Positions 1-14,545 of a stretch of DNA of 28,544 nucleotides are shown piece by piece. How positions within the stretch are numbered: the first letter of the stretch is position 1; each line of letters opens with the position of its first letter. Below the pieces are notes generated by a model. The model did not search any database and was not told the DNA's origin. It saw only the letters and a program-made list of their open reading frames with translations. Both the position numbers and the translations under genes were made by a program. The DNA is from a virus. The DNA is taken from positions 1-28,544 of the IMG/VR virus record IMGVR_UViG_3300027734_000249; one strand, written 5' to 3'.

Positions 1-2283
1 AGGTGTGCCTGCATTGGTTGCAATGCCCGCACCATTCTGTGTGGCACTTAATCTAAACGCACTGACACCATCTGTGTAAGTTATGAAATATGTGCCGTTG
101 GCCACACTGGGTGCCAACACTGTAAACGTAATGCCTGTGGGTCTACCACCTGTGGTAACCAGTGCGTCACCAGCACCGTCTACTAGAGAGTATTGTCCAT
201 TGGCTATTGATAGATAATAAGTTGTTGGATTGGTATATCCTGTTATGCTGGGCTTCAGTATCTTTACTGTGATACCTGTGGGTGTTCCAGCCTGTGTTGT
301 TATGCTTTGACCACTTTGTGTTATCAGTGTAAAACTAGTAGTGCCATTGGTTGATCCAATTAGATAAGTTGTAGGATTGGTGTATCCAGTAATTGCTGGT
401 GCCAGAACTTTAACAGTGATACCTGCTAGGCTACCACCAGTTGTTGACAATGGGGCGCCGTTGGTTTCAACTAGAGTAAACGTTGTTGTTCCATTGGTTG
501 CTGAAATAATATAATCTTTGGGACTGGTGTAACCTACAGCACTGGCAATCTGTGTTTGAAATGTCAGCCCCGGTGTTGTTCCACCAAAGGTTAATAAAGG
601 TGTGCCATTGAGTTCTGTTAATGTAAATGTTGTTGTAGTATTTGTAGCACTGATAACATAGGTTGTAGGATTAGTATAACCATTGATCAATGGTGCTTGC
701 ACTTCATAGGTTAATCCAGTGGGCGTGCCTGCTGTAGTAACCAATGCTGTGCCATCTAGTTCTGTTAGTGTAAACGTTGTTGTGCCATTGGTTGTACTGA
801 TAACATATAAACTAGGATCAACATAGCCTGTGATAGTGCCAGTGCCACCCAGAGTGCCTGATATTTTAACTACTTGTCCTGCTGTTAATGTTGATGCTGT
901 GCAACTAAACTGACCTGCTGTGCCTGTAATGGCTACACCAGCCAGTGCTGTCACTGTGGTATTAGTATTAGTGCCTGAAACTATAACTGTTTGTCCAATA
1001 CTTAACGTGCTGGCAGCACAACTGAATTCACCACCACTGCCAGCAATGACTACTCCACTCAGTGTCTGTGGTGTTGCGCTTACTGAACCACTGACGTTGA
1101 CAGTTTGCCCCACTGTGAATGTTGATGCCGCTGAACTGAATGTTCCCTCAAGTCCTGTAATGAACACTGATGACAATGTAGTATCTGTATTAGTGATAGT
1201 GCCTGATATTTCTACGCTTTGTCCTGCTATAATTGTAGTACTGTCACAGGTAAAGTCACCGCCACTGTTGACTATCTTCACATTACTCAGTGTTGTATCA
1301 GTATTGGTAATAGTCCCTGCTACAGTGACGCTTTGTCCTTCAACTAGGTTAAATTGTTCATAGCCCTGAAATGCTTGACTCAGTCGTTCCTGGCTGTTGT
1401 TTACAGTGTAAACACCCACACCACCATTAGTGCCAGATACAAAGGCTGTAATTGTTGTGTTTGCTGTTAGACTGCTGGCTGACAGTGCCATGCCAACTTC
1501 AATAAAGCCTGATGTCACTGATGTCACTGTTAACACAGTGCCTGCACCTGGAGCAGTGCCATCATCAATTGTGCCTACAAAACTGGCAAAACTAGGATTG
1601 TCAAAACTTATTCTACCAGCGTTACCTACAATGTCTACATTGGTTAACTGTTTGGTTGTTGTGTTAGTGTTAGTGCCAGATATTGTAACCTTTTGGTTTA
1701 CCTTTAATACTGCACCATTGGTATAACTGAAGTCACCAGTGTGACTGGTGATTGCTACACCAGTGAGTTCATCTGTTTGATTATCAAAGGTAATTGTTGT
1801 TGTGCCAGCCGCTGAACTAGCCGCAGTGGTCTTTAAACTTACGCCACTGAACTCAGGCCAAAACATGGGAGGATTGGCTTCGTCATTGTAGAAAGGCACA
1901 GTACCATTCCAGGCTTCTGTGATGTTTGTTGCTTGTCCATAAGTGGTAAATGGTCCAGCACCGGGAGTGATATCCTGCCAGGCACTGAGTCCATTGGTAG
2001 CATACCAGTAGCCTTCTGTGGTGGCTGCTACAAAGTAGTAACTATTGTCCTTGCCAGGCTGTGGCTGTCTAAAGCCTGCACTGACATAAGTGGGAGTGCC
2101 AGGTATTGTATCTAAAAACTCTTGATCACCAGCCACTGATCTAATGCCTCTAACGTCTGTTTCAACATTTAAACCAGAATTATATTCATTGGGTCCCAGA
2201 GCCGTTGATGGTACGTCGGGCGTGTAACTCATCTTGGCAAAGGGTATTCTTACTTCTTCATAACTCTTTTTAGGTTGTGGCAT
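1..2283 (-). CDS. Probable tail nozzle/tube protein with two families of tandem repeats (partial, runs off left edge)
   Basis: An ATG at 2283 opens a frame of 761 codons with no stop before the left edge, so the C-terminus is missing. Residues 1-150 look like the start of a podoviral nozzle or tail tubular B-like protein: GLNVETDVRGIRSVAGDQE, then a Tyr/Trp-rich stretch with AWNGTVPFYNDEANPP. Residues about 165-490 carry repeats of about 34 aa around GQxVxVSGTxTNTxTTLS. Residues about 490 to the edge carry six copies of a module of about 49 aa, GYTNPTTYxISxTNGTTTFTL, resembling the FCCH-type beta modules common in phage structural proteins. The SD GAGGA and a CTAAATA element lie just upstream. 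The nozzle role is inferred from the N-terminus and size; a tail fibre or other baseplate protein is possible. Confidence 0.6.
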   Translation of the reverse strand, partial: MPQPKKSYEEVRIPFAKMSYTPDVPSTALGPNEYNSGLNVETDVRGIRSVAGDQEFLDTIPGTPTYVSAGFRQPQPGKDNSYYFVAATTEGYWYATNGLSAWQDITPGAGPFTTYGQATNITEAWNGTVPFYNDEANPPMFWPEFSGVSLKTTAASSAAGTTTITFDNQTDELTGVAITSHTGDFSYTNGAVLKVNQKVTISGTNTNTTTKQLTNVDIVGNAGRISFDNPSFASFVGTIDDGTAPGAGTVLTVTSVTSGFIEVGMALSASSLTANTTITAFVSGTNGGVGVYTVNNSQERLSQAFQGYEQFNLVEGQSVTVAGTITNTDTTLSNVKIVNSGGDFTCDSTTIIAGQSVEISGTITNTDTTLSSVFITGLEGTFSSAASTFTVGQTVNVSGSVSATPQTLSGVVIAGSGGEFSCAASTLSIGQTVIVSGTNTNTTVTALAGVAITGTAGQFSCTASTLTAGQVVKISGTLGGTGTITGYVDPSLYVISTTNGTTTFTLTELDGTALVTTAGTPTGLTYEVQAPLINGYTNPTTYVISATNTTTTFTLTELNGTPLLTFGGTTPGLTFQTQIASAVGYTSPKDYIISATNGTTTFTLVETNGAPLSTTGGSLAGITVKVLAPAITGYTNPTTYLIGSTNGTTSFTLITQSGQSITTQAGTPTGITVKILKPSITGYTNPTTYYLSIANGQYSLVDGAGDALVTTGGRPTGITFTVLAPSVANGTYFITYTDGVSAFRLSATQNGAGIATNAGTP

Positions 2284-2304
2284 TGTGGTGTCCTCTTAAT
2301 CCAA

Positions 2305-2311
2305 TATTTAG
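2305..2311 (-). promoter_or_regulatory. Late-promoter-like CTAAATA element
   Basis: CTAAATA on the minus strand lies 21 nt before the ATG at 2283, in the gap after the 85-aa gene. The spacing leaves room for a short leader containing the SD GAGGA. Assignment rests on recurrence of the element before many genes in the window and on similarity to the T4 late promoter TATAAATA. Confidence 0.5.
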
Positions 2312-2341
2312 CCACGGATAATCTTAGATTTTCTCAAACAA

Positions 2342-2599
2342 TTAATACAGTCTAATCACTGCAAAGTCAGTGGTGTTGAACTCTGTGTTAAGTTTATTAA
2401 CCAAGTTCTCTGCCACCTTCTTAGTGGGAAACTGACATCTAGGATATTTGAAACGTTGTCCTTCCAGTTTCTGTTGTCTTGTTCTCAGCGTAACATGCTG
2501 ACCCTGGTAAGCAATTGAGTAAACATGTTCACTGACTATGATGTCTACGTGATTACATTCACGTTCTGTGCTCATTAGTATGTCTGGTTCTGGTCTCAT
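2342..2599 (-). CDS. Hypothetical protein, 85 aa
   Basis: I do not recognise this protein. It has no signal peptide or membrane segment. The C-terminal part (FPTKKVAENLVNKLNTEFNT) looks like a short helix in a small soluble alpha/beta protein of the kind phages often use as host-takeover or accessory factors. Its ATG at 2599 overlaps the stop of the preceding gene as ATGA, so the two are probably translationally coupled. Confidence 0.7.
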   Translation of the reverse strand: MRPEPDILMSTERECNHVDIIVSEHVYSIAYQGQHVTLRTRQQKLEGQRFKYPRCQFPTKKVAENLVNKLNTEFNTTDFAVIRLY

Positions 2600-2802
2600 A
2601 TCTGTGTAAACCTTTCACTGTATTCTGGATATTTTAATGTAAAGGCCAGTGCGTCTTCATTGGTCATAGTTGCCCATAGGTACTGGAACTCCCAGTCAAA
2701 TCCCGACTTAAATGGATGTTCTTTGTGAAAATCTTTGAGTCTTTGATTAAGCACTTGGTGATTCATGCCTTCATAATCAATGCTTTGTCTTATTTGCATC
2801 AT
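2596..2802 (-). CDS. Hypothetical protein, 68 aa
   Basis: The start chosen is the first of two adjacent ATGs at 2802, because AAGGAGA lies 5 nt upstream (2814-2808). A longer frame back to 2847 would run through the SD and the promoter-like element. The product (MMQIRQSIDYEGMNHQVLNQ...) is acidic/aromatic with no recognised domain. It overlaps the next gene by 4 nt (ATGA). Its ending DALAFTLKYPEYSERFTQI resembles the end of the upstream 257-aa protein (EALAVLNKHPVYTERWNAEFVK), which suggests an ancient duplication of a C-terminal segment. Confidence 0.7.
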   Translation of the reverse strand: MMQIRQSIDYEGMNHQVLNQRLKDFHKEHPFKSGFDWEFQYLWATMTNEDALAFTLKYPEYSERFTQI

Positions 2803-2824
2803 TGCTGTCTCCTTGTTATGTAAG

Positions 2825-2832
2825 TATTTATT
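2825..2832 (-). promoter_or_regulatory. Late-promoter-like AATAAATA element
   Basis: AATAAATA on the minus strand overlaps the TAA stop of the 257-aa gene. It is followed by a leader ending in TAACAAGGAGAC before the ATG at 2802. Nearly the same element and leader occur before the 143-aa gene (4304-4281), which supports a shared regulatory unit. Confidence 0.5.
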
Positions 2833-3601
2833 TAACAAACTCAGCATTCCAGCGTTCTGTGTAAACAGGATGCTTGTTAAGTACTGCCAAGGCTTCTACA
2901 TCAGCGTTCATGGCATATAAATGATTGACTCTGGCTTTGAATTCCTCATACTCATAGTCTATGCCTTCTTGAACAAAATGTTCATTGGTTGTAGGCATGT
3001 AGTAGTCTGGGTCTATGTTAAATGCGTGAGCATAAGTTTTCATATAGACTTTACTCTTACCACCGCCTTTGTTGTCCCACATTTCAATTTTACAGTCATT
3101 TTGATCTATGACAAACTCCAAGGTATCATCGGGCATGATCCAGTGAACCAACCAATATAAACTATTGTCTGGATTGCGTAAGTGTTGCACACGGATCAAA
3201 CTGGGCAGTCTGGGTATGTACCATTTGTGTATGTTCTTACCAGTTTTTTTAAACGTGCCGCTTTGATATTCACTGGGCATGCCTAACAATGGTGGCAGTG
3301 GGCTGGGTCTGTTTACATCATCTTTGATTGTCTGTGCAATGGTTCTCTGTTGTTCATAAAATACTTTACAATCTTTCCAGCGTTGTCTGCGGGCTAGATC
3401 ACTGGGCGGCCAACTCAGTGTGCTTTGCAGTTGCACTGGGCGTGTGGGTGTCAGCATCCATAAGTTTAATTTGTATCTACCAGAATATTCTTTTTTAGTG
3501 TATCGGGTATTGAATCCTGGATCAAACCAGTGGTTGTCCAACATGTTTGGTATGTTGTCTATAATCGTTATTTTCAATTGATTAATCCTTTTGCTTTTCA
3601 T
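2828..3601 (-). CDS. Hypothetical protein, 257 aa
   Basis: Unrecognised. A soluble protein rich in Trp, Tyr and Pro with no signal peptide, membrane segment or obvious catalytic motif. The middle (HKWYIPRLPSLIRVQHLRNP, then WLVHWIMPDDTLEFVI) looks like a beta-rich core, and the C-terminus is helical. The ATG at 3601 is preceded by AAGGAAT at good spacing. It is the first gene after the iteron-like intergenic region and so may be expressed from a promoter within it. Its C-terminal EALAVLNKHPVYTERWN resembles the end of the next protein, DALAFTLKYPEYSERFT. Confidence 0.75.
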   Translation of the reverse strand: MKSKRINQLKITIIDNIPNMLDNHWFDPGFNTRYTKKEYSGRYKLNLWMLTPTRPVQLQSTLSWPPSDLARRQRWKDCKVFYEQQRTIAQTIKDDVNRPSPLPPLLGMPSEYQSGTFKKTGKNIHKWYIPRLPSLIRVQHLRNPDNSLYWLVHWIMPDDTLEFVIDQNDCKIEMWDNKGGGKSKVYMKTYAHAFNIDPDYYMPTTNEHFVQEGIDYEYEEFKARVNHLYAMNADVEALAVLNKHPVYTERWNAEFVK

Positions 3602-3623
3602 TTCTATTCCTTGTCTATGTTAT

Positions 3624-3643
3624 TAGGTCTGCATCTAGTAGTA
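3624..3643 (+). repeat. 20-bp element, copy 1 (inverted relative to copies 2 and 3)
   Basis: Reads TAGGTCTGCATCTAGTAGTA on plus. With copy 2 it forms an almost perfect inverted repeat flanking an AT-rich segment immediately upstream of the 257-aa gene. It could be an operator or an origin iteron. Confidence 0.7.
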
Positions 3644-3674
3644 TATAACAATAAGATGTATATATATATGTTTG

Positions 3675-3694
3675 TATTACTAAATGCAGACCTA
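3675..3694 (-). repeat. 20-bp element, copy 2
   Basis: Reads TAGGTCTGCATTTAGTAATA on minus, differing from copy 1 at two positions. It is followed on plus by a further partial match (tagtaggtct). Confidence 0.7.
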
Positions 3695-3719
3695 GTAGGT
3701 CTTTACAGCATTTGACAAA

Positions 3720-3770
3720 CACGACTTCGTCGTCGCTTCGCCGTTTGGGAGCCCAGGGGGCTTGAAGTCA
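3720..3770. other. GC-rich potential hairpin block
   Basis: Distinctly GC-rich against the AT-rich flanks. It contains ACGAC-TTC-GTCGT (about 3720-3732) and AGCCC-AGG-GGGCT, within a longer GACTTC...GAAGTC pairing. These are partly alternative folds. No long T-run follows on either strand, so it is not a clear terminator; it may be a structured RNA or part of an origin. Confidence 0.4.
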
Positions 3771-3799
3771 TTTTGAGGGATCAGGAGTAAAGGCTTGCT

Positions 3800-3819
3800 T
3801 ATTACTAGTTGTAGACCTA
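3800..3819 (-). repeat. 20-bp element, copy 3
   Basis: Reads TAGGTCTACAACTAGTAATA on minus, 17 of 20 positions identical to copy 2 and in the same orientation. It lies just downstream of the 143-aa gene. Confidence 0.6.
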
Positions 3820-3843
3820 GCCCTGAAAAAAACGCCGGTGATT

Positions 3844-4275
3844 TCATGTTTTAATTTTTGCAAACAGCGTAGTAAACTCAGTGGTTTCAATGATCGTGCC
3901 AGATTCAATAAATTTAATTTCTGGTATTTGGTTGCTGTGTATCTCAGCCATGAGTGTAGTCAATGTTTCAATGCCTGTGCATGTTTTAGGACTTAGGTCT
4001 CTGCGCTTGGGTGTCTGTGATAGTTTATCAATGACGCCTTCACAGAAACTTCTGGGACTGTTATATTGATTGTTTTTCTGTGGCTGTCTCAGCAGTTTTT
4101 CATTGGGTTTATTGAACCATTGATTGAATTCGGGTCTGGGGTCATAGTCCTGTAATAGCATGTAAGCAGTAAGTACCTGGCGTAACCATTGTTGATCCTG
4201 AACGTTCAGTGATCGCAGTGGGTCTCTGGTTTGCACACCCTGTCGCAGTTTATAAGTGATGTGTTCTGTCTTCAC
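3844..4275 (-). CDS. Hypothetical protein, 143 aa
   Basis: Starts at GTG 4275, chosen because AAGGAGA lies 4 nt upstream. The product is a soluble, basic, mostly helical protein (MKTEHITYKLRQGVQTRDPL...), with no recognised domain, signal peptide or catalytic motif. It is the last gene before the iteron-like region, so a role in replication or regulation is possible but not shown. A GATAAATA element 22 nt upstream suggests separate transcription from the coupled operon above it. Confidence 0.7.
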   Translation of the reverse strand: MKTEHITYKLRQGVQTRDPLRSLNVQDQQWLRQVLTAYMLLQDYDPRPEFNQWFNKPNEKLLRQPQKNNQYNSPRSFCEGVIDKLSQTPKRRDLSPKTCTGIETLTTLMAEIHSNQIPEIKFIESGTIIETTEFTTLFAKIKT

Positions 4276-4296
4276 AGTGTCTCCTTGTTAAGTTAG

Positions 4297-4304
4297 TATT
4301 TATC
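4297..4304 (-). promoter_or_regulatory. Late-promoter-like GATAAATA element
   Basis: GATAAATA on minus lies just after the stop of the 193-aa gene. The leader that follows, ending TTAACAAGGAGACA, nearly duplicates the one before the 68-aa gene at 2802. Confidence 0.5.
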
Positions 4305-4306
4305 TA

Positions 4307-4888
4307 TTATAACTCTTTTCCTGTGAGCATTATGTATTCTTCTTTGGAAATGTAATAAAGTTCAGTGGGTTTAGTTTTTAACCAATGATCCAATTTGCCC
4401 ATTGCATTTACAACACCCAATGATATCATGTGTTCAGCCAAATGCTTTTTACCAGGAAATACACCATATTCAGTTGATACAATTGGTTTACATTTTTTTT
4501 TAGCGGCTTCTAAATTTTTTTCATACCAACCATTTTCATTGCGTTTGTTTAGGCCTTTGGCATGAGCATCTTTCCATTTATCAGTTTTAGTAACTTCTTG
4601 AATAATTGCAAGTCTAAATTCTTTATAAATTGGATCAGCATATTGTTGCTTAATAGTCTGTGATTTTTTATCTTGAACAGTTCTATCTTTGGCCATTTCT
4701 TTATTAAGACGAGATCTATTGGCTTGATAGTTTGGATCCTGTTTCTTGGTATTAATAGCACTTTGATTGGCTGCATGCCATGCAGGATCTAAACTACGTT
4801 CACTGATACCAATTTGGTGTTTAGTTGCCTTATAAATTTCAGCAGTTTGACGTTGCTCATCTAAGATTTGTTGTATAGATTTAGTCAT
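4307..4888 (-). CDS. Homing-endonuclease-like DNA-binding protein lacking a visible nuclease domain, 193 aa
   Basis: The first two thirds are lysine- and glutamine-rich, with repeated short elements (DPAWHAANQSAINTKKQDPNYQ, DPIYKEFRLA) recalling the NUMOD3-like DNA-binding modules of phage GIY-YIG and HNH endonucleases. The C-terminus, TEYGVFPGKKHLAEHMISLG then KLDHWLKTKPTELYYIS, matches the typical terminal helix-turn-helix of these proteins (x-P-x-G-V-F-x-S-x-K). No GIY-YIG, HNH or LAGLIDADG motif is visible, so it may be a decayed or repurposed endonuclease. It is more A+T-rich than its neighbours, as expected for a mobile gene. Its start overlaps the ATPase stop (TAATG). Family assignment is from motif memory, not a search. 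Confidence 0.6.
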   Translation of the reverse strand: MTKSIQQILDEQRQTAEIYKATKHQIGISERSLDPAWHAANQSAINTKKQDPNYQANRSRLNKEMAKDRTVQDKKSQTIKQQYADPIYKEFRLAIIQEVTKTDKWKDAHAKGLNKRNENGWYEKNLEAAKKKCKPIVSTEYGVFPGKKHLAEHMISLGVVNAMGKLDHWLKTKPTELYYISKEEYIMLTGKEL

Positions 4889-5745
4889 TATTTCACCTGA
4901 ATGTAATTAGTTGTCCAAATATCAAGATAATCTTTGGGATAACGAACCATGTCCTTGGTCATCTTTTCAGTGAGACTTAGGTTGCGTTCTGTAACTTTAT
5001 CCCAGTGCGTATAGCACCAAGTAGCAATTTGTTCCTTTTGGCTCATTGAAATGTTGGGCATAAACTTTTCGCAGATTTGTTCATTGATAACAACATCAGC
5101 AACATAACCCCAAAGTTCCAAGTTATCCATGCCAATTTCTTTGTATTCTGTTCTACGACGAATAGCATACAGATCTTTGGCTTTGCTATGTTTTGAAGTA
5201 GACGGATCCATGTCATCAACTTCATTGACTGTGGGTAAATGACGATTGGTTAATGTGATAAAAGTTACATCATTCAATGGAACTGTAAAGCCTGCTGATT
5301 CAGGCTGAGCAAAATTTTCAATTGCTTCAATTTGTAAATCTGTACAGAATTTATACAAGCCTTTGGCTACTTTACCATAGCGTAAAATCCTTGTATCATC
5401 AAACATCTTTTTTGCTATATTGACATTACTATCTTCAAAGATAACATCACAGTCATCAAGTACCACTGTAAGATGTTGACCTCGTGCCAAATAGACTGCG
5501 GTGGCAACATCAATGATAAATGATGGCATACTGGCTGTACCATTAAACACCAGCGGTGCATTAGTCATTAATTTTAATGCTTTATCCATTTCAAAACTTT
5601 TACCCAATCCTGGCATACTTGAGACTACAAAATTCTCACGGAATGGATTGTTGTGTAGTGCTTCATTGATCTGTGATCGCAGTGTAGCGCGATGCACTTG
5701 TCCTTTGGCAATGTAGTGTAATTGATCTTTGTTAAATACTTGCAT
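4888..5745 (-). CDS. AAA+ type P-loop ATPase, 285 aa
   Basis: Walker A is SMPGLGKS at residues 43-50 and Walker B is LTVVLDD at 92-98. A sensor-1-like asparagine (TFITLTNRH) lies near 167 and a YAIRRRTEY arginine cluster near 190, in the order expected of AAA+ proteins. The length suits a phage helicase loader (DnaC/gp59-like role) or a recombination or takeover ATPase; no specific family is recognised. It sits in a four-gene operon, overlapping both neighbours by one base (TAATG). Motifs and class are directly visible. The cellular role is not, although the DNA-binding-like downstream neighbour favours work on DNA. Confidence 0.8.
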   Translation of the reverse strand: MQVFNKDQLHYIAKGQVHRATLRSQINEALHNNPFRENFVVSSMPGLGKSFEMDKALKLMTNAPLVFNGTASMPSFIIDVATAVYLARGQHLTVVLDDCDVIFEDSNVNIAKKMFDDTRILRYGKVAKGLYKFCTDLQIEAIENFAQPESAGFTVPLNDVTFITLTNRHLPTVNEVDDMDPSTSKHSKAKDLYAIRRRTEYKEIGMDNLELWGYVADVVINEQICEKFMPNISMSQKEQIATWCYTHWDKVTERNLSLTEKMTKDMVRYPKDYLDIWTTNYIQVK

Positions 5746-5918
5746 TATACTCGCTCCAATTCGTTGTTAAGTTTTTTAGCCAAATCAATCATTTCTTGTT
5801 TATTGCGGCTCATACCTTTAGACCAAAGTTCCAATCCTCCATGAACTTCTACTACCTTCCAAAATGGAATGCCATCTCCGTCACTGCCCACAACTTTGTA
5901 TGTTATAAATTTATTCAT
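5745..5918 (-). CDS. Hypothetical protein, 57 aa
   Basis: A small gene that fits exactly between its neighbours, with TAATG overlaps at both ends (ATG at 5918, TAA at 5747-5745). The product begins MNKFITYKVVGSDGDGIPFW and continues with VVEVHGGLELWSKGMS, then a C-terminal amphipathic helix. It looks like a two- or three-strand sheet plus helix, a common layout for small phage regulators. Function unknown. The tight coupling and conserved reading frame make it very likely real. Confidence 0.8.
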   Translation of the reverse strand: MNKFITYKVVGSDGDGIPFWKVVEVHGGLELWSKGMSRNKQEMIDLAKKLNNELERV

Positions 5919-6226
5919 TATAGCACCTTATAACCAAGTTTGTTACAACTTTCTTGGCTCATTTGAAACATGACTTGAGCATTTCTATTGTTAAGTCCAT
6001 TCCAAAGTCCTTCATAAGCGCGAATTGCTTTGGGGTCATTTTTCATTTGACTGGCAACGGCATTCCAAGTGTTAATATTTTTATTAGATATTTGCTTGTC
6101 TTGATTTAAGATCAACATACAACTTCCAAGTTGGAAACTGCGGCTATTGAATTCTTTAAGAATATCCTGTGCCTGTGTGGCTGTTACAGAACCTGCAATA
6201 ACTAAAAGTGTTAAAAGTTTTTTCAT
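5918..6226 (-). CDS. Small exported protein with Sec signal peptide, 102 aa
   Basis: The N-terminus MKKLLTLLVIAGSVTATQAQ is a classic Sec signal: two lysines, a hydrophobic core, and predicted cleavage after TQA near residue 19. The mature protein of about 83 aa has two cysteines (36 and 94) that could form a disulfide in the periplasm. It has no lipobox or recognised domain. The ATG at 6226 has the SD AGAGGA and lies downstream of an extended -10 promoter with a leader of about 50 nt. It heads a coupled operon. Candidate roles are superinfection exclusion, envelope modification or lysis control; none is shown. Confidence 0.8.
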   Translation of the reverse strand: MKKLLTLLVIAGSVTATQAQDILKEFNSRSFQLGSCMLILNQDKQISNKNINTWNAVASQMKNDPKAIRAYEGLWNGLNNRNAQVMFQMSQESCNKLGYKVL

Positions 6227-6279
6227 AATATCCTCTGTGTGTTAAGTGTGTTATGTAGCATTATCGCTGACATGTATCA

Positions 6280-6288
6280 ATTATAGCA
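6280..6288 (-). promoter_or_regulatory. Sigma70-type extended -10 promoter
   Basis: The minus strand reads TGCTATAAT: a perfect TATAAT -10 at 6285-6280 preceded by the extended -10 TGn. No good -35 is visible at 17 nt, as is usual for extended -10 promoters. It lies downstream of the terminator at 6386-6355 and 54 nt before the first ATG of the 6226-4307 operon, suggesting host RNA polymerase transcribes that operon. Confidence 0.7.
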
Positions 6289-6354
6289 CAGGCAGGAATA
6301 AACGCCTAATTATTTGGATTATTTACGGTGTTGTATTTTTGCAACACTTCAGCC

Positions 6355-6386
6355 AAAGAAAAAGCCCTAGATGCGAAACTAGGGCT
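6355..6386 (-). terminator. Rho-independent terminator
   Basis: On minus, AGCCCTAG pairs with CTAGGGCT (8 perfect bp, 8-nt loop, 6386-6363) and is followed directly by TTTTCTTT. It closes transcription arriving from the structural genes and from the CTAAATA element at 6527, and insulates the promoter at 6280. Confidence 0.85.
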
Positions 6387-6515
6387 AATTCCCGAATCAC
6401 CTTACCCTACAAACAATATTGGAGATTAAACGTATGACAACGGTGATTCTAACAAGGATAATAACAACAACAGACCTACTCTAATGGCCGTAAGGGATAT
6501 GAATCTGCCGCTGTC
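6355..6515 (-). ncRNA. Candidate structured small RNA, about 160 nt
   Basis: The gap between the 186-aa gene and the 102-aa gene has a CTAAATA element at 6527-6521, then about 130 nt with no convincing ORF, then the strong terminator. Within it GAATCACC (6449-6442) pairs with GGTGATTC (6401-6394), an 8-bp perfect stem next to the terminator hairpin. The only ORF is 13 codons (starting MTAADSYP). It does not fold as a tRNA. This layout suits a small RNA, but a 3' UTR of the upstream gene is an alternative. Confidence 0.4.
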
Positions 6516-6520
6516 ATAGT

Positions 6521-6527
6521 TATTTAG
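6521..6527 (-). promoter_or_regulatory. Late-promoter-like CTAAATA element
   Basis: CTAAATA on minus lies 30 nt after the stop of the 186-aa gene, with no long ORF downstream before the terminator. It is the strongest hint that the following segment is a separately transcribed RNA. Confidence 0.45.
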
Positions 6528-6556
6528 TATATAAAACTAAAATACTATCTAGTACT

Positions 6557-7117
6557 TTAGTAATCTTCGGTGAAATCTTCTTGTTCAATGCTGACGTTAA
6601 ATGTTCTTGGTTCACCAACAATGGCATTGACAAACTTAATGTCTGCACCCTTGTAAATCAAACTGTTAAACGTGCCCTGACCATACAGTCGTTCGTCCAA
6701 GGTCTCACCACTTTGTCGTCCCCAGTGCCTGACAACATCCAATTGAATGCGACTGATGCGAGGTCTGGGTGGTCGTGGCATGGGGTTGGTCCACAGTGCC
6801 AGTGCATCCTGGGGTATCTGTGATTTAAATGTGTCAACATCTTCTACGTAGTACAAACTCATCCAGCCTTTGCGGCTACGATTTTTATACCAACACTGAT
6901 AGTCAACACTGTCTATGAACACAGGTCCTAGACTCCAAATTGCGTGTGTGTAATTATCTGGTTCTGGAAAAGCGTTAATTGTATAATCAGCGTAATTATT
7001 AATGTTTGTTTTAACCCAGCCTGTGTGTGCTGATACTTGTATGCGTGGGTCTGGCATTCTATAATCGGGTTTAGTACCCGTAAAGAATTGCCAGTCTTTG
7101 TTTTGTGGACGTCTCAT
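6557..7117 (-). CDS. Hypothetical virion-associated protein, 186 aa
   Basis: Unrecognised soluble protein, Trp/Tyr/Pro-rich in the first 110 residues (WQFFTGTKPDYRMPDP, HAIWSLGPVFIDSVDYQCWY), with a PRPPRPRISRIQLDVVRHW segment and an acidic tail ending EQEDFTEDY. It follows the large fibre gene, so a tail or fibre-attachment role is plausible from position only. The ATG at 7117 lies only 4 nt after a TTAAATA element and has no clear SD. Confidence 0.65.
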   Translation of the reverse strand: MRRPQNKDWQFFTGTKPDYRMPDPRIQVSAHTGWVKTNINNYADYTINAFPEPDNYTHAIWSLGPVFIDSVDYQCWYKNRSRKGWMSLYYVEDVDTFKSQIPQDALALWTNPMPRPPRPRISRIQLDVVRHWGRQSGETLDERLYGQGTFNSLIYKGADIKFVNAIVGEPRTFNVSIEQEDFTEDY

Positions 7118-7121
7118 TGAC

Positions 7122-7128
7122 TATTTAA
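7122..7128 (-). promoter_or_regulatory. Late-promoter-like TTAAATA element
   Basis: TTAAATA on minus, embedded in the inverted repeat GACTC-n-GTC and ending 4 nt before the ATG at 7117. If functional, the transcript would be leaderless or nearly so. Confidence 0.35.
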
Positions 7129-7149
7129 CGAGTCAATTCTTAATACAGA

Positions 7150-10100
7150 TTATGCTCCTATGGGTGTCACTGTTGTGATTAAACTTGCTGTGCCGGGCCC
7201 AAATGCTGTGGCAGCGTATGTTGGGAATATCACCGCGGTGTCGTTGACAGCATAAGCCAATTCATAATAGTCTGTGGTATTGGCAGAACTTATCACATAA
7301 TTCCAACCAGCAATGGTTGCTCCTGACTTAGGAATGTTAATACGGCCCATACTGCCTGTGACATCCGTGCCATTCTTACGCAGCCAAATATAAGCCACAT
7401 GTTCTGCGTTGACTGTATTTTCTACTTGAACACTGAACTGTAGGTTATACAAGCCTGCGGCACCTATGATAATCCTGCTGGTAGATCCTACACTAACAAT
7501 GTTGCTGAAATCCACAATGCCTATAGGGAACACAGCCGCTGTGTTTGCGGCAGCAGGTGTTACTGTGGTGTTGTATTGGAATGCTCCATACACTCTGTTG
7601 TAAGTAATTTTACTGCCAACAAGATTTACGCTATTGCTGTCATTGAGAGTTAAAGCATCACTGGCTATTACAGCATTGGCACTGCTAATGCTAATGGCAT
7701 CTAATGGTGTAGTGCCACCGATTTTATCCACATTGATGGCAAATGCACCACCACTGGCAGACGCAGTAAAGTTTTCAGCGGCCGTAGCCCTAAAACGAAC
7801 GCTGGGCCCCAGTGTGGTAAAAGTGCCGGTAGTACCATAATTACCACCAAAAAAGAACTCACCTAGATAATCACCACTTTGCGTAGCACTGAACAAGTTA
7901 GTGCCTGTGTTAAATTTACCAGTGTTAAATGTAATTGTTGATGCTTCACTGCTACTGGTAGTTGCTGTTTGAACACGCAGTTGACTGACACGATCATTAA
8001 ATGATGCTGCCGCTGGATTACCTGCATTAATGAGTAAACTAGTGCTGCCACCGTATGTTGTCTGCGTTGTAGGATTAGTTAAACTTAATAAAGTAGTATT
8101 AACAGTGGTGGTTGTATTAGCACCAGTCATACTAATAACCGCAGTGCCAGAACTGTTTTGTATGTCATTACCATTGATACGAACATCGCCGGTGACAGTT
8201 AAATTACCACTGACATCCAGAGCCATGGTCTGTGTAGTGCCAGTTTTACCATTGGCCCAGGTAAATGCGTCACTGCGACTGGCAAATGTCTGTGGATTAA
8301 TAGCCAATACAGACACTAAGTTAGCACCTGTGGCAATTGTTGTTGCTGTGGGTGCTAACAATAATTGGGCTTGTGTGCCAAGGTTTGTATTACTGATCCA
8401 GTTTTCAGTGGCTGTATAATTGAAAACACTGGGCATAACTGCCAGTGTGTCAGCCAACCAACCAGTTGATGTATAACCTGTGCCTTCAAGGCTACCAATT
8501 TGATCACCACTTTGAACTGCTGTGGGACTGGCACTGGTTCCTCGTGCTCGTTCAAATATAACACGACCACGAGTGCCAGCACCTGCCACTGCGCCACCGG
8601 TAAAACTACGCAGTATTGTCATAGGACCATCTGCTGTGTCAGCACTGTTGTCTAAACTGATACCTTTGAAGCCTGTGCCTGAGGGACCCAGTGTGAAGAC
8701 TTCACCAGCAGCCGCTGTTGTTGCATTGCGAATAGCACCCTGCACATAATTTCTGGTGTTTGTTAAGTTACCACCATTGGCCAGTGTAAGTGCAACACTA
8801 CCACTACCATTGGGTGCTAAAGTCATGTTGCCATTGACACCATTGGCCAATGTTAATGTGCCAGCATTGGTGCCGTTGTTAGTGTTTAATATTAAGTTAC
8901 CAGTGCCATTGGTTGTAATTGTAGCGGCTGTGTTTGCATCACCAACTTGAACAATGTCTGCACTTAAAATAACATCACCAGTGCCATTAGGAACAATATT
9001 GATGTTGGCATTGGCACCATTTAATATTGTGATCTGGCCACTGTTTGTGCCATTGTTAGTATTCAATACTAGGTCACCTGTGCCATTAGTTGTCAGTGCG
9101 GCATTGGTGTTAAGATCACCAATTATAGTAGAATCAGCAGTTAATAAGACATCACCAGTGCCACTGGGAGTAAGCACAATGTTTGAGTCTGTGCTACCAC
9201 TGGTAATTCTTAGTTCACCTGTGCTGTTGGTAATGTCACCACCCTGCACGTTTAAATCACCGGTCATTGTTGTAGCACCAGTAATTGTAATTGCACTGGT
9301 TGCCGCAGTGATTAATAAGTCACCTGTGGTTGTTGAAATAGTATTTGGTGTAACACTACCCACAGTAATGTTACCAAACGTATGACCACTGTTATCAGCC
9401 ATGTCATAGTACGTAGTGCCGTCATTGGTAAACTGCCATTTGTTTGTTGAGGAGTTCCATCTTAGAGCAACGTCTGCACCTGTGCTACCGCGATTAACTG
9501 CATAATACGCATCAGTGGCCGCACCTGTAAGGTTATAATTTAGTGTTAAAATTGTAGCATCAAATTTGGCATCAGTGCCATTTACATCCATGACAGTTGT
9601 TCTAGTTGTAAAATTGTCTGTGGTTGTAACTGCAAGGAAACTTGGATCAGTGGCACTGTAAGCAAAGCCTGTTAGACCAATACCCACTGTGGCTTGTGTA
9701 TCACTGGTTATTTGATATTGAACTGCGGTACTATCACCTGTGACATAAGTGTAAGTGTCATAATCTCTGTTTACCAGCAATGAACTTGTAGCAGTTGATG
9801 TAGAATTTTGATATGTGGCTTTGAAACGAGTCGCACCTGTTAAACTTGTAACTGTGCTATTGTTTACAAAATTACTGCCATTATAGGTAAGCACATTACC
9901 AGCCGCTGGTGTAGTAATGATGACGTCACTGAGGTCATCTAGTGTTTGAACAAATGGACTCCAGTTAGTGGGACTAGTTCCATCTGCATTGAATTCAAAT
10001 CTGTTTGTAGTTGCGTTCCAACGAATGGCAGCATTGTTGTTTGGTGCTACACGACCAAAGTTTAAGTATGTGTCAAAATTAGTTTTATCACTGTTAATGG

Positions 10101-11154
10101 TAATGGCATCTGCTTGCACAGCCAATGAACCTGTAATGACAGCGTCTTTGTTAACAGTAACATAAGTACCAGCACTGGTAATTGTTAAATCACCTGTGGT
10201 TGTAGATATAGTATTGTCTGTGGTTACAGCAATAGTGATGTTACCAAAGGCAGCACCATCACTGTTGATGCCACCGGTGGCATCCCAGACTGTGCCATTC
10301 CAGGTTAAACTACCTAGACTACTACCACTGTATGCCTGATAACTTGGATTAGTAACTGTTTGATCATTGTTAATAGCAACAATGCCATTAAAATTACCAT
10401 TGCCTGTGACTTCAAAATCACCATTGACTTGAACTTCACCACCAGTGCTTTGTAAAAACAAATTACCTGAAGTAGTGGTAATAGTGTCAGGATCTCCAGC
10501 ACCCACTGTGACAAGGCCTGCAGTTATTCCGGCAAATGTTGGACTGCTTGTAGTAGCAATGTCCTGTGGTGTGCTTAACGTAACAGCACCTGTGCTGGCA
10601 CTGGCAATAACCTGATTGGCTGTGCCTGTAATACTGGTTACGCCTGCTGAACCAGGACTGGAGTTTGTAATAGTAATAGTGTCAGCATCTGTTCTTGTCA
10701 CAGTAATACCAGTTCCACTGGCAAACTTTACTGCGTCTGTGCTGGCATCACTGCCCACTAAATTTAAATTGGCGCCACCTGCTACTGTGCTGGCGTTAAT
10801 GGCATAGGTTGTTCCTGCAGGATTTGTGTTAGTAATAAGAATAGTACTGCTGTCTGTGCTTGACACAGTAATGCCTGTGCCACTGGCAAATGTAACGAAA
10901 TCACTGCTGCCATCACTGCCTGTTAATAATAGATTACCACCGCCACCAGTGACAGCACTGGCAATGTTATAAGTTGTATTACCAACTACAGTCACTGGAA
11001 TAGGATCTGCTCCACCTCCACTGTACAATGTAGTAAAGTTTTTACTGGCTATTGAACTATCAAGTGCAGGGTCACTGGGTGTGGCCAAATTTACATTGGT
11101 GTCTGTGCTACCATACAGTGATGTTAGATTATTTGATGATACGGTGTCTGTCAT
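7150..11154 (-). CDS. Large tail fibre / receptor-binding protein, 1334 aa
   Basis: A Thr/Ser/Asn/Gly-rich beta-repeat protein. Residues about 50-165 hold two copies of a module of about 57 aa around SDxVxFASGTGITVxxTD. Further on, ISTTTGDLxIT segments recur. Residues about 640-810 carry three copies of a module of about 47 aa, TTNGTGDLVLNTNNGTNSG followed by NIVPNGTGDV. The last 140 residues (GLYNLQFSVQVEN, AYIWLRKNGTDV, GWNYVISSANTTDYYELAY) look like a C1q/TNF-type jelly roll, a typical receptor-binding tip. AAAGG lies before the ATG at 11154. It sits between the adaptor and a 186-aa protein, as expected in the tail module. Virion location and host-recognition role are inferred from composition and the C-terminal domain. 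Confidence 0.8.
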   Translation of the reverse strand: MTDTVSSNNLTSLYGSTDTNVNLATPSDPALDSSIASKNFTTLYSGGGADPIPVTVVGNTTYNIASAVTGGGGNLLLTGSDGSSDFVTFASGTGITVSSTDSSTILITNTNPAGTTYAINASTVAGGANLNLVGSDASTDAVKFASGTGITVTRTDADTITITNSSPGSAGVTSITGTANQVIASASTGAVTLSTPQDIATTSSPTFAGITAGLVTVGAGDPDTITTTSGNLFLQSTGGEVQVNGDFEVTGNGNFNGIVAINNDQTVTNPSYQAYSGSSLGSLTWNGTVWDATGGINSDGAAFGNITIAVTTDNTISTTTGDLTITSAGTYVTVNKDAVITGSLAVQADAITINSDKTNFDTYLNFGRVAPNNNAAIRWNATTNRFEFNADGTSPTNWSPFVQTLDDLSDVIITTPAAGNVLTYNGSNFVNNSTVTSLTGATRFKATYQNSTSTATSSLLVNRDYDTYTYVTGDSTAVQYQITSDTQATVGIGLTGFAYSATDPSFLAVTTTDNFTTRTTVMDVNGTDAKFDATILTLNYNLTGAATDAYYAVNRGSTGADVALRWNSSTNKWQFTNDGTTYYDMADNSGHTFGNITVGSVTPNTISTTTGDLLITAATSAITITGATTMTGDLNVQGGDITNSTGELRITSGSTDSNIVLTPSGTGDVLLTADSTIIGDLNTNAALTTNGTGDLVLNTNNGTNSGQITILNGANANINIVPNGTGDVILSADIVQVGDANTAATITTNGTGNLILNTNNGTNAGTLTLANGVNGNMTLAPNGSGSVALTLANGGNLTNTRNYVQGAIRNATTAAAGEVFTLGPSGTGFKGISLDNSADTADGPMTILRSFTGGAVAGAGTRGRVIFERARGTSASPTAVQSGDQIGSLEGTGYTSTGWLADTLAVMPSVFNYTATENWISNTNLGTQAQLLLAPTATTIATGANLVSVLAINPQTFASRSDAFTWANGKTGTTQTMALDVSGNLTVTGDVRINGNDIQNSSGTAVISMTGANTTTTVNTTLLSLTNPTTQTTYGGSTSLLINAGNPAAASFNDRVSQLRVQTATTSSSEASTITFNTGKFNTGTNLFSATQSGDYLGEFFFGGNYGTTGTFTTLGPSVRFRATAAENFTASASGGAFAINVDKIGGTTPLDAISISSANAVIASDALTLNDSNSVNLVGSKITYNRVYGAFQYNTTVTPAAANTAAVFPIGIVDFSNIVSVGSTSRIIIGAAGLYNLQFSVQVENTVNAEHVAYIWLRKNGTDVTGSMGRINIPKSGATIAGWNYVISSANTTDYYELAYAVNDTAVIFPTYAATAFGPGTASLITTVTPIGA

Positions 11155-11163
11155 TATAGCCCT

Positions 11164-12372
11164 TTACTTAACGTTGAATTGACGATATATACGTGGTTGC
11201 CATACTGATGTCAACTTTGTATGTCCACCACTCCATTTACCTAAATTGTTTTGATCATTTACTTGGTTCCATGCTTCTTTAAATTTACCATCATAAATGG
11301 CAGCATCTGTTTCGTTGTGTCTCTTAATAAAATACTCACGCAGTGTAGCATATACATAACCTTCTGCCCAGGTCTGTAATACAGCATTGTTTTGAACTGT
11401 TTGATTAATTAATTTAATGTTGGTTACTGTACCTGCTGTGGGAGTTGATCCACCTGTGGCTGCCACTGAGATTGTTATACTGGTACTGCCAATAACACTG
11501 GCCACTGTAATAGTGCCTGTGCCAATACTGCCTGTGCCAGCAGTTGCACTGATTGGTTTGCCTGGTGTTAAGCCAGTTGTTGAACTCATGCCTGTTATGG
11601 TAGCAGTCCAAGGACCTGCGCCTGATATTGATCCAACAGTGCCGGTTGTGCTGATAATAGCATCTGCCACTGGAGCAAACAACAAGGGCCAGGCTTTGTA
11701 GTAATACATGTTAACAGCAGTTCCTTCTCCAATAAGTGGTAAGAATTGATATTGATTATAAACCTCACTGAACTTACCACGGATAACCTGCGGTACGTTA
11801 TAGGGTTGCATGTATAATTGTGCCAGTAAGCCTTGACTGATAATGTCTCTGTCACCAATGCGATCATACACCAACCAAGGACCATTGCCTGTGGTGTTGC
11901 CTGCTGGCGTTGAAAATGTTATTGTTCCACTTACAGTGCCTGAGTTAACCACACTGAGTGTAACCACGCTGCCTATACTACCACCACCTGAACTGGCAAC
12001 TGTTGCGCCTGCGCCAATACCTGTGCCTGTTACAGTCATACCAGTTGATATGTTTTGTCCTGGATTGGATGTCAGTGTTATTGTATAAGCCGCACTAACA
12101 CCTGTTGCTGTAGCAGTGGTTGTTACTTGATTGCCTTGTCTAAAGAACACAATGGGCTTGTTCATGTCACCGGGAATGTCAATGCGTCCATTCTCATCGG
12201 CTACGCCAATGTTTTCTGCGGCATAGGGGTCACTGCGTAGTGCTGGCAATTCAATGTTACGCATGGACATTTCTGCCATAAAGATACATTTCTTTATTTC
12301 TGTGTCATTGGTGCTGCCAGTAAAGTCTTTGATGAAAGTTACTAGATCATCTGCTGTGGGTATTACAAACAT
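11164..12372 (-). CDS. Head-tail adaptor-like protein with two inserted beta modules, 402 aa
   Basis: The core resembles phage adaptor / tail tubular A-like proteins: an N-terminal helix set (TADDLVTFIKDFTGSTNDTE, then MAEMSMRNIELPALRS), a central FLPLIGEGTAVNMYYYKAWP, and a C-terminal LQTWAEGYVYATLREYFIKR helix. Two Gly/Thr-rich insertions interrupt it at about residues 84-155 (STGMTVTGTGIGAGATV) and 238-320 (GAGPWTATITGMSSTTGLTP). Without them the core would be about 250 aa, nearer the usual adaptor size. Position after the capsid gene and before the fibre fits a portal-tail connector. Adaptor identity is from pattern recognition and should be taken as probable. Confidence 0.65.
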   Translation of the reverse strand: MFVIPTADDLVTFIKDFTGSTNDTEIKKCIFMAEMSMRNIELPALRSDPYAAENIGVADENGRIDIPGDMNKPIVFFRQGNQVTTTATATGVSAAYTITLTSNPGQNISTGMTVTGTGIGAGATVASSGGGSIGSVVTLSVVNSGTVSGTITFSTPAGNTTGNGPWLVYDRIGDRDIISQGLLAQLYMQPYNVPQVIRGKFSEVYNQYQFLPLIGEGTAVNMYYYKAWPLLFAPVADAIISTTGTVGSISGAGPWTATITGMSSTTGLTPGKPISATAGTGSIGTGTITVASVIGSTSITISVAATGGSTPTAGTVTNIKLINQTVQNNAVLQTWAEGYVYATLREYFIKRHNETDAAIYDGKFKEAWNQVNDQNNLGKWSGGHTKLTSVWQPRIYRQFNVK

Positions 12373-12375
12373 TTT

Positions 12376-12960
12376 TTATATTCCTTGAAAGAATCTTTTT
12401 TCGCCTACTTTTGTAGGATATGGCACATCAATGGGTATGGGTAATTTGCCATGTGGATAGCACACAAATTGTGGATATTCTGTTTCCACAACTTTATAAA
12501 ATTGTGCTTTAAGTGTGCGATCATGTTTAATTGTATTCCAGGGCATGCCACCAAAATAATCATCACTGATTTTAATAGCAACCACCTTGGGTAAATCTAT
12601 CCACTTCCAACCAACAGTGCCATCAGGCATGTATGGTCCCAGAGGATCAGTGATACCTTTTTCTGCCATTGTTCTGTAATCTTTGACAGCGTCAATAACA
12701 GCCTTTATGTTTAGTTGTTCGCGTTGAATGTAAAACTTGCCGTCTTCACGGCCTGTAGTAACTTTTATGTTGCCGCTTTTGTTTAACTCACTGCGAGTCC
12801 AGTCACCTTTCATGGCATTGTATAGTTTATTGTTTTGCAATAATCTATCTGCTATACCATTGTGACTGGTAACGGTGCCACCATGGTCCTGGCGCCAGTA
12901 ATTTAAATTCTTTTCTGGGTCCGTATCATCTAAGTATTCGGGTTGGTTAATATCATTCAT
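12376..12960 (-). CDS. Hypothetical protein, 194 aa, between capsid and adaptor genes
   Basis: The frame is open back to 12999, but the start is set at ATG 12960 (MNDINQPEYLDDTD) because the upstream part runs through a terminator hairpin and a CATAAATA element. The product is soluble with mixed charge; WRQDHGGTVTSHNGIADRLL and VGWKWIDLPKVVAIKISDDYFGG are its notable parts. No domain is recognised. Its place between the major capsid and adaptor genes suggests a head or neck component. It has no SD, and the promoter-like element ends 5 nt before the ATG, so the mRNA may be leaderless. Confidence 0.75.
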   Translation of the reverse strand: MNDINQPEYLDDTDPEKNLNYWRQDHGGTVTSHNGIADRLLQNNKLYNAMKGDWTRSELNKSGNIKVTTGREDGKFYIQREQLNIKAVIDAVKDYRTMAEKGITDPLGPYMPDGTVGWKWIDLPKVVAIKISDDYFGGMPWNTIKHDRTLKAQFYKVVETEYPQFVCYPHGKLPIPIDVPYPTKVGEKRFFQGI

Positions 12961-12965
12961 AGCAG

Positions 12966-12973
12966 TATTTATG
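12966..12973 (-). promoter_or_regulatory. Late-promoter-like CATAAATA element
   Basis: CATAAATA on minus lies between the capsid-gene terminator and the ATG at 12960. Because the terminator closes the upstream transcript, this is the only visible candidate promoter for the downstream adaptor and fibre genes. Confidence 0.55.
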
Positions 12974-12982
12974 CAAATAAAC

Positions 12983-13012
12983 ATCAATGAAAAGGCCACC
13001 GAAGTGGCCTTT
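12983..13012 (-). terminator. Rho-independent terminator with cUUCGg tetraloop after the capsid gene
   Basis: On minus, AAAGGCCAC-TTCG-GTGGCCTTT (9 perfect bp, 13012-12991) continues as TTTTCATT. The loop and closing pair form the very stable C(UUCG)G motif. It lies 22 nt after the capsid stop codon and probably also protects the abundant capsid mRNA from 3' decay. Confidence 0.9.
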
Positions 13013-13034
13013 ATCAGTTTACTAAATCCTTGAA

Positions 13035-14526
13035 TTAGGAAGTAGAACCTGGACCTGCGTTTACACGACGGACTAGGTTAGCACTACGTGGGCTAGTAAC
13101 GATTGTTGAGCCTGTAGTAATGTTGTTTAACATACCAACACCTGCTGGGTTACGTACGATAAGTGTCCCCTCCATAAGAAATTGATCCAATGAAGCGTCA
13201 GCAGAACTGAATACTTCGTTGTTAGGACCTAGGTCACGTAAACTACCCCACTGCAACACGTCTTCGTTTAAGAAGTAAATGCTGTTAGAAGTACCACTCT
13301 GGTCCATCACCCATGAGTCATAAACTTCGTATGTGTAACTGAAGTCGCCTTCGTATGTTTGAATCGTGTCACCACGCTCAACGTTACGACGGTTTACGCT
13401 TGTGTTAGAACTAACGATGTTATCACTGATAGTAGTTCTCAAACTTGTTGGAACAACCATAGTGCGGATCTTAGCGTTGTAACGTTGTTCAGCAGTAGTT
13501 ACCAATTGCTTGTATAATACTGGGCTGAATACTTGGTTACTGAAACCAGAACCGTTGGCTGTGTAGTAGTAGTTACCGTTGGCAACAACATACAATGCGT
13601 TTACACCACTGGGGCTGCCAGATAATTGGCTCAATGTTGTTGAACTTGTGTCACTGCTAGGTGCGTTGTAGTTTGTTGTCAAACCTGCTTCTGTGCCAGA
13701 CACTGTGTTGAATGACAATGTGCCAGCGTAAGATGCCAGTGAACCCATACGACGACCGCTGGTGTTCTGGCTACCTGCTGTAGTTTGGCTGTTACCAGTT
13801 GCACTACCGCTTTGACCGCTGTATTGTGTACCAATTTGGTCACTGCGAACTAATTGTTGTTCTACGTCAAACATCAATTCAATTAACTGCTTCACTTCTT
13901 GATCATTTATATTCGCAATAGATTCGTTACTTCTATCACCGCCTTTTCAGGCTGCTATATGTTTCCATATAGATTAGACTATCTCACAATCCACTAGGGA
14001 TTCTCTGCACTTCGGGTCACTTGACCCTACGAACTTACGTTCTAGTCGTTACACCTTCACTATTACTAGTGCTTGGCACGGTATTGTCTTCAACTTTACT
14101 TGCTAAGAGTTTCACCGTTTTCACAGAGTTATTCAATACTGCTTACGCAGTAAGGGCGCTTTCAAAAGTTAACGCTTGGGGATCACCACCAGATTGCATA
14201 ACAGCACGAGCAGTACCAGTGGCACCAATCGTAGTCTGGAAGATCTGTGTGAAGTTGTTCAAGTTGTAACGCTGATTTGCTTCTGCGTATGTAGAACTAA
14301 CACTTGCACCTTCTTGCACAGCATTAACTGCTGGCAAGCGATAAATGTCATCAGTCCACAAAGGTTGTGTGCTGTTAACTTTACGCTTTTTGCTCATACA
14401 CATGTTTAATACAGGTGTATCGTCTTTAACTCTGTTAGAGACGTCTAAATCCAAATCCTTGACAACGATGTCTGTTGCGAATGCGCCTGTACCGTTACCA
14501 ATGTTTGTAGTTGAAATAAATGCCAT
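13035..14526 (-). CDS. Major capsid protein, 407 aa, interrupted by a group I intron (join of 14526-14172 and 13903-13035)
   Basis: Exon 1 (355 nt) encodes residues 1-118 plus one base, and exon 2 (869 nt) encodes the rest. Joining them completes a TAT codon and gives GGDPQAYQEVKQLIELMFDV, with the DPxAYQ motif and following helix typical of the DUF5309/SU10-like major capsid family. N-terminal landmarks are VSNRVKDDTPVLNMCMSKKR and the TQIFQTTIGATGTARAV strand before the junction. Exon 2 has the family-like SGRRMGSLASYAGTL. Unspliced mRNA would stop after 127 aa (ALTA, then TAA). AAAGGAG precedes the ATG. It follows the scaffold gene and ends at a strong terminator, as expected for a highly expressed capsid gene. 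Splice sites are inferred from P1 pairing, similarity to the T4 td intron and protein continuity. Confidence 0.88.
13904..14171 (-). ncRNA. Group I self-splicing intron (td-like, IA2 type), 268 nt, no ORF
   Basis: Read on minus. The 5' exon end GCGU (14175-14172) pairs with GCGC (14159-14156), giving the U-G wobble at the 5' splice site. P2 is ACUGC-GUAA-GCAGU (14151-14138). Core strands include ACGGU/ACCGU (14118-14114 with 14082-14078), the R element ACGACTAGA (about 14050-14042) and the S element GAGATAGTC (13985-13977) forming P7. P7.2 is GGGTC-AAGU-GACCC (14027-14014) and P8 is AATCC/GGATT (14002-13988). P9 is CUAUAUG-GAAA-CAUAUAG (13972-13955) and P9.1 is GCCU-GAAA-AGGC (13952-13941). 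The terminal G is at 13904. Order and wording match the T4 td intron closely (compare AGGGTCAAGTGAC and GACAATxCCGTGC). There is no room for an endonuclease gene. Confidence 0.93.
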
Positions 14527-14545
14527 TTTTAGGCTCCTTTAAATT

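Follow-up and report, generated by a model that had tools for sequence, protein, structure and literature searches.

The window, as we call the whole stretch of DNA analysed here, is a 28,544-base virus record in which nearly all genes lie on the minus strand and whose structural genes, on our own reading, form a podovirus-like set. The locus considered here comprises a terminator, a promoter element and four consecutive open reading frames, with the following features.

6363..6386, minus strand: intrinsic terminator upstream of the cassette, with an 8-bp stem containing 5 GC pairs, followed by TTTTCTTT.
6280..6288, minus strand: extended -10 promoter element TGCTATAAT, read directly from the sequence.
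5918..6226, minus strand: 102-aa protein with a signal peptide, the first gene of the transcription unit and outside the conserved pair (ORF list).
5745..5918, minus strand: 57-aa protein, outside the conserved pair (ORF list), whose sole relative lies at L066:4020-4235.
4888..5745, minus strand: AAA+ ATPase of 285 aa with a P-loop, a distant NrdC.10/phrog_1250 relative (profile match, alignment, AlphaFold2 model and fold matches).
5596..5622, minus strand: Walker A, SSMPGLGKS, residues 42-50 of the ATPase, with G46 and K49 invariant in a 12-row alignment.
5446..5466, minus strand: Walker B, VVLDDCD, residues 94-100, with D97-D100 invariant in the 12-row alignment.
5152..5160, minus strand: probable arginine finger, RRR, residues 196-198, with R196 and R198 invariant in 12 sequences including that of phage FLC8 (27% identical).
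4307..4888, minus strand: 193-aa adapter, probably of a nuclease-less, homing-endonuclease-tail type, the family of this copy being assigned through its relatives.
4799..4888, minus strand: N-terminal motif of the adapter, MTKSIQQILDEQRQ..., the proposed ATPase-docking segment; among 12,283 ORFs an HMM of this segment matches only AAA-adjacent genes.
4319..4492, minus strand: C-terminal I-TevI/IENR1-like helix-turn-helix region of the adapter, whose profile matches the other adapters and an HNH-like protein in L025.

The sequence confirms what an earlier note had described, namely four frames joined by three successive TAATG overlaps, with a terminator and an extended -10 element upstream; the minus-strand ORFs spanning 6226 to 4307 have one base in common at each of the three junctions. 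The translational coupling that the note drew from this arrangement is also supported; in relatives the ATPase and adapter genes usually overlap or abut. We considered the TAATG overlap as a special sign of this operon and rejected it, because further 1-nt overlaps at 19046 and 19249 bring the number to 5 of the 27 junctions checked in the window, which makes it a habit of the genome.

Relatives of the ATPase were collected with a pattern scan, which gave 4 loci, and an alignment-based scan, which gave 13 at 49-69% identity. Not counting the window, 12 distinct cassettes fall in the close clade (AAA identity 49-69%), and every one has an adapter directly downstream of the AAA gene, at a spacing of -11 to +7 nt. 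The adapters are 150-283 aa long, and L011 has two of them in tandem. The pairing extends well beyond this clade. The Burkholderia jumbo phages FLC6 and FLC8 (24.8% ATPase identity) and three large contigs, L091-L093 (about 25%), encode a NUMOD3 plus I-TevI-type protein next to the AAA gene, 66-69 nt on, and in L097 a 23%-identical ATPase is coupled to a 231-aa partner of ambiguous type, at the same place between the terminase genes TerS and TerL as in L017. No such AAA gene was found in plasmids, nor in bacterial or archaeal genomes, which were scanned with two short patterns only. The components are of known kinds, and we found no description of an AAA/NUMOD pair, or of an AAA protein combined with a homing-type adapter, in the open-licence literature covered.

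The earlier note had proposed a joint function for all four genes. For the ATPase and the DNA-binding protein this is supported, since the two are conserved together in every close relative; for the four as a module it is not, and the neighbourhood check that the note had called for leads us to reject the four-gene unit, conservation being limited to the ATPase and the adapter. The 102-aa exported protein, whose signal peptide (MKKLLTLLVIAGSVTATQA followed by QD) is plausible by eye, has no relatives in any of the loci fetched, and the 57-aa protein has one, at 40% identity, which stands alone without an AAA gene; neither has relatives in the other cassettes. In L012 and L013 a small lipoprotein-like gene overlaps the start of the AAA gene, and the L012 lipoprotein has no sequence similarity to the exported protein of the window. 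The two small upstream genes would then have joined the pair in the window, where they would use its promoter. No known defence system was matched by the cassette in PADLOC, NCBIfam or Pfam; the adapters match homing-endonuclease models, beyond which PADLOC returned a weak match to mads_1 (E 8e-4, L091) and a marginal one to BrxF (E 0.0099, L016).

The ATPase has the Walker A, Walker B, sensor 1, arginine finger and fold of an AAA+ protein, with two deviations in its motifs, a serine in place of the first Walker A glycine and a Walker B that reads DDCD. Its AlphaFold2 model (pLDDT 91.6) finds solved structures only as a general match, at a TM of about 0.46 (CbbQ, NorQ, RuvB, Vps4, Cdc48; also Lon), and the 50 PDB matches listed include no helicase loader, initiator, TnsC, IstB or MuB. 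Viral models (BFVD) fit better. The best is a 283-aa protein (TM 0.86), which from its length and identity is taken to be the FLC6 homologue, followed by a model from RDJL Phi 1, and NrdC.10 of Aeromonas phage 25 is also a fold match (E 6e-11, TM 0.62). A 2006 paper mentioned NrdC.10 as an AAA ORF with no assigned function (PMC1524935). At the profile level the ATPase matches phrog_1250 over the P-loop core (E 1.8e-10; 8e-16 for the FLC8 copy), in a span of positions 106-197 out of 327, and the full-length architecture, including the N-terminal ~100 residues, is not present. Because the match is limited to these positions, we treat the window ATPase as a relative of NrdC.10/phrog_1250 rather than a strict member. 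The T4 NrdC.10/phrog_1250 group shares with it the P-loop core and the NrdC.10 fold, whereas the phrog_1250 ATPases examined, from Vibrio, Xanthomonas, Stenotrophomonas and Pseudomonas phages, differ in carrying an additional region at the N-terminus and in not being followed by an adapter gene. In Xanthomonas phage X1 (L086 2695-3684) that region is winged-HTH-like (AbiEi_4, E 0.018), suggesting DNA binding in cis where the cassettes would have it in trans. As a separate observation, the AAA gene at L005 10004-10642, on a contig shared with L018, lacks the N-terminal part including Walker A and is followed by an intact NUMOD3 adapter; its neighbours are ClpX-like, DnaK, Hsp20 and ClpS-like genes.

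DNA-binding modules of homing endonucleases are known to shuffle between nucleases, repressors and replication proteins, and the adapters appear to be built from them. Relatives of the window adapter match the Pfam families NUMOD3 (1.1e-8, L005), I-TevI_DNA-bd (5.9e-8, FLC8) and NUMOD1 (2.1e-6, L008), as well as phrog_314 and phrog_655, both annotated as homing endonuclease, and when the adapter profile was compared with PDB sequences, the I-TevI DNA-binding domain ranked first (E 0.047). The adapters of L009, L014 and L016 have no family match of their own. Alignments to TIGR01453, the NCBI model of group I intron endonucleases, start at position 81-93 of 215 and run through to the end, which places the adapters in the part that follows the nuclease domain, and alignments to phrog_314 run from about position 256-281 onward. 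In the tail homologues of SPbetaL3, PA-SR01 and Motura a GIY-YIG-type part precedes the tail, as judged by eye; no nuclease domain of the GIY-YIG, HNH or LAGLIDADG type was recognised in the adapters scanned. Alignment with these relatives suggests that the window adapter is probably a homing-endonuclease tail of the nuclease-less type. The label DNA-binding-like given to it in the earlier note is therefore probably right, although this copy itself has no significant Pfam match. Its structure model has a low pTM (0.38), and a fold search with it against the PDB gave no match.

At the N-terminus, in the position that the nuclease occupies in homing endonucleases, the close-clade adapters carry the motif x-IQ-x-ILDEQR-x-x-S. 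An HMM of 32 N-terminal residues, trained on 11 adapters and searched against 12,283 stop-to-stop ORFs, retrieved AAA-adjacent genes only, with the best unrelated ORF at E 0.56, and it scored the L016 adapter, which was outside the training set, at 1.2e-6. Both adapters of L011 have the motif. The L008 adapter has a weak form of it (12 bits, E 0.1), and the partners in FLC8, L091 and L097 lack it, so a common docking mode is unsupported for the wider family. A Mantel test of the ATPase against the two ends of the adapter gave r 0.42 for the N-terminus versus 0.41 for the C-terminus, and does not separate a linked N-terminus from an exchanged C-terminus.

Related phages carry the cassette at different positions. 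In G002, a sister of the window phage (TerL 72%, portal 61%, MCP 74/62%), the pair sits between the GNAT and TerS genes, a site other than that in the window; where this junction has no pair, the distance between the two gene starts is 53-70 nt in four relatives and 69 nt in the window. In turn, the AAA gene is missing from the window's site in all 64 loci that share the window's tail gene, 26 of which extend across the variable fibre region. L016 and L017 carry the pair in antisense orientation between TerS and TerL; in L098 and L099, which have no pair there, about 275-310 nt separate these two genes. Besides G002, no large terminase related to that of the window was found in the other cassette records searched, several of which are fragments. 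A pattern scan for empty sites found no relatives of the flanking genes at 6557-7117 and 3844-4275; two p143 relatives found later (L025, L072) have other genes at the place of the cassette. No cassette ends were detected and no target-site duplications defined, and no transposase was noticed in the cassette neighbourhoods read. The TerS-TerL interval (L094, L097-L101, L130) is itself a cargo site of this phage group, holding, mostly antisense, the AAA-adapter pair, a diverged AAA pair, an rIIA-like, a peptidase-like or a methyltransferase-like gene, or next to nothing.

A promoter usually travels with the cassette. That of the window outscores everything else within 120 nt upstream (p = 0.015 against shuffles) and has a poor -35 (TAGGCG). 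Across 13 homologous cassettes, which are related and hence not fully independent, the scores exceed those of dinucleotide shuffles (combined p about 1e-9) and those found upstream of other genes in these loci (86 regions, Mann-Whitney p = 4e-6). The 120 nt upstream often contain strong sigma-70-like promoters, reading TTGACA-17-TATAAT in L011 and TTGACA-16-TATAAT in L016, with close forms in L004, L009 and L014; scores in L002, L003, L006, L012, L015 and L091 are individually not significant. Because scores are high across the homologous cassettes, a host-type promoter is a recurrent feature of the cassette, and the proposal of an independent transcription unit under such a promoter is supported. 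Phage morons have their own promoter, are placed between conserved genes and are often antisense. The pair shares all of this, being placed where relatives have two genes side by side, and it differs from morons in its fixed ATPase-adapter cargo with a variable DNA-binding part and, in the window, in that no terminator was found after 4307, the terminator being upstream only. The pair is thus a small, moron-like mobile cassette found at different sites in related and unrelated phages. An Rfam scan of the intergenic region upstream of the cassette returned one weak, meaningless match. On the opposite strand of this region, at 6434-6484 (plus strand), is a tiny Thr/Ile/Leu-rich ORF, MTTVILTRIITTTDLL (by eye), with GGAG ahead of it, which has the look of an attenuator leader peptide, though chance may account for it.

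The constant, coupled pairing and a cassette-specific N-terminus in the place of a nuclease suggest docking on the ATPase, with the variable part choosing the site. Our preferred reading, to which we give a probability of about 0.5, is that the pair is a mobile, sequence-addressed AAA+ machine in which an adapter derived from a homing endonuclease brings the ATPase to a DNA site. The functional unit would be two genes, the ATPase and its translationally coupled adapter, the latter combining a short ATPase-specific N-terminal motif with variable DNA-binding modules (NUMOD, I-TevI helix-turn-helix, zinc finger). The motif would dock on the ATPase ring, the variable part would pick and bind a particular DNA site, and the ATPase would then remodel or block whatever occupies it, be it a polymerase, a repressor, a competing nuclease or a replication complex. 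The outcome could be phage-phage competition, by exclusion of competitors, or control or repression of a target gene, though any particular outcome falls short of even odds. If adapters do address the ATPase to DNA, phages would possess a modular system whose target could be switched by swapping a small protein, with the motor left as it is. Homing-endonuclease DNA-binding modules are here repeatedly joined to a motor ATPase, and to our knowledge NrdC.10-type ATPases have had no function assigned; the reading, if true, would give those of T4-like and jumbo phages a concrete and testable one. More tentatively, and with a low probability, the cassettes may represent an undescribed class of mobile element with no nuclease or transposase of its own, in which an AAA+ motor is directed to specific DNA sites by interchangeable adapters of homing-endonuclease origin through a common docking peptide and acts between phages as a weapon or a regulator, or as a means of nuclease-free homing via replication stalled at the target.

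Among the alternatives, the one that survives best, and which we still consider unlikely, is a control pair in which the adapter is a CapR-like repressor or activator, or an origin binder, and the ATPase a cooperating initiator or loader. CapR, of the Vibrio satellite PLE, is a nuclease-less relative of homing-endonuclease DNA-binding domains that acts as a repressor in phage-satellite conflict (PMC10448857, PMC8263062), I-TevI is an autorepressor (PMC2988022), and the phrog_1250 ATPases of T4-like phages are encoded within replication clusters, close to the genes for clamp loader and RegA. CapR differs, however, in being a zinc-finger repressor, and PMC10448857 mentions no AAA or ATPase. Occurrence at different sites and in unrelated phages suggests that the pair is dispensable cargo, and the solved folds nearest to the ATPase are CbbQ/NorQ, RuvB, Vps4/Cdc48 and Lon, with neither a helicase loader nor an initiator in the list of 50.

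Somewhat less probable again is that the adapter is a decayed homing endonuclease adjoining a phage ATPase by chance, the two being selfish remnants with no joint mechanism. The pair resembles GIY-YIG and HNH homing endonucleases of the I-TevI, Seg and Mob type in several ways: their NUMOD1/NUMOD3 and I-TevI-type modules are those of the adapter C-terminus, they too spread from phage to phage and insert near essential genes, and several loci have homing-type genes close by (L011 776-1366, NUMOD3 1.5e-9; L097 477-803). Yet the pair differs from them in having no nuclease domain, an ATPase partner and a promoter carried along. Chance adjacency also sits poorly with a pairing that is constant, coupled and in the same order in 13 close-clade cassettes and again in the 25% clade, with complete adapters that are all intact ORFs, and with an N-terminal motif that is retained exclusively beside AAA genes, including in both L011 adapters.

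The earlier suggestion, that four genes including a periplasmic factor form a system for early takeover, exclusion or defence, is very improbable; the host-type promoter and full coupling in the window, and the lipoprotein-like gene of L012 and L013, speak for it, but the other cassettes are without the exported and 57-aa genes and the L012 lipoprotein has no similarity to the exported protein of the window. Least probable of all is a transposition-type target selector pair (TnsC/TniQ-like or IstB/MuB-like) serving a transposase or recombinase in trans, since the logic of an AAA+ protein directed by exchangeable site-specific DNA-binding selectors, as with TnsC and TniQ/TnsD of Tn7 (PMC10293859), the mobile behaviour and a weak match of the FLC8 AAA protein to phrog_296 (phage DNA transposition, E 9e-4) are set against a cassette with no transposase, no detected ends and no TnsC-type fold, IstB or MuB among the matches listed.

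Two further observations concern other parts of the window and the related records. A group I intron (RF00028, 56 and 70 bits) with no long ORF is found at 13955-14181 (minus strand) in the window and at 865-1088 in L063. In both it interrupts the major capsid gene, whose parts in the window lie at 14143-14526 and 13035-13895; apart from L063, these parts are contiguous in the other 17 relatives checked. In G005 the adapter gene (1-537 of L084, which is G005 1-15000) runs off one end of the record, and an overlapping C-terminal part lies at the other end (L085, 15001-28763); IMG/VR classes this 28.8-kb record as linear, but it is probably circular or carries repeats at its ends.
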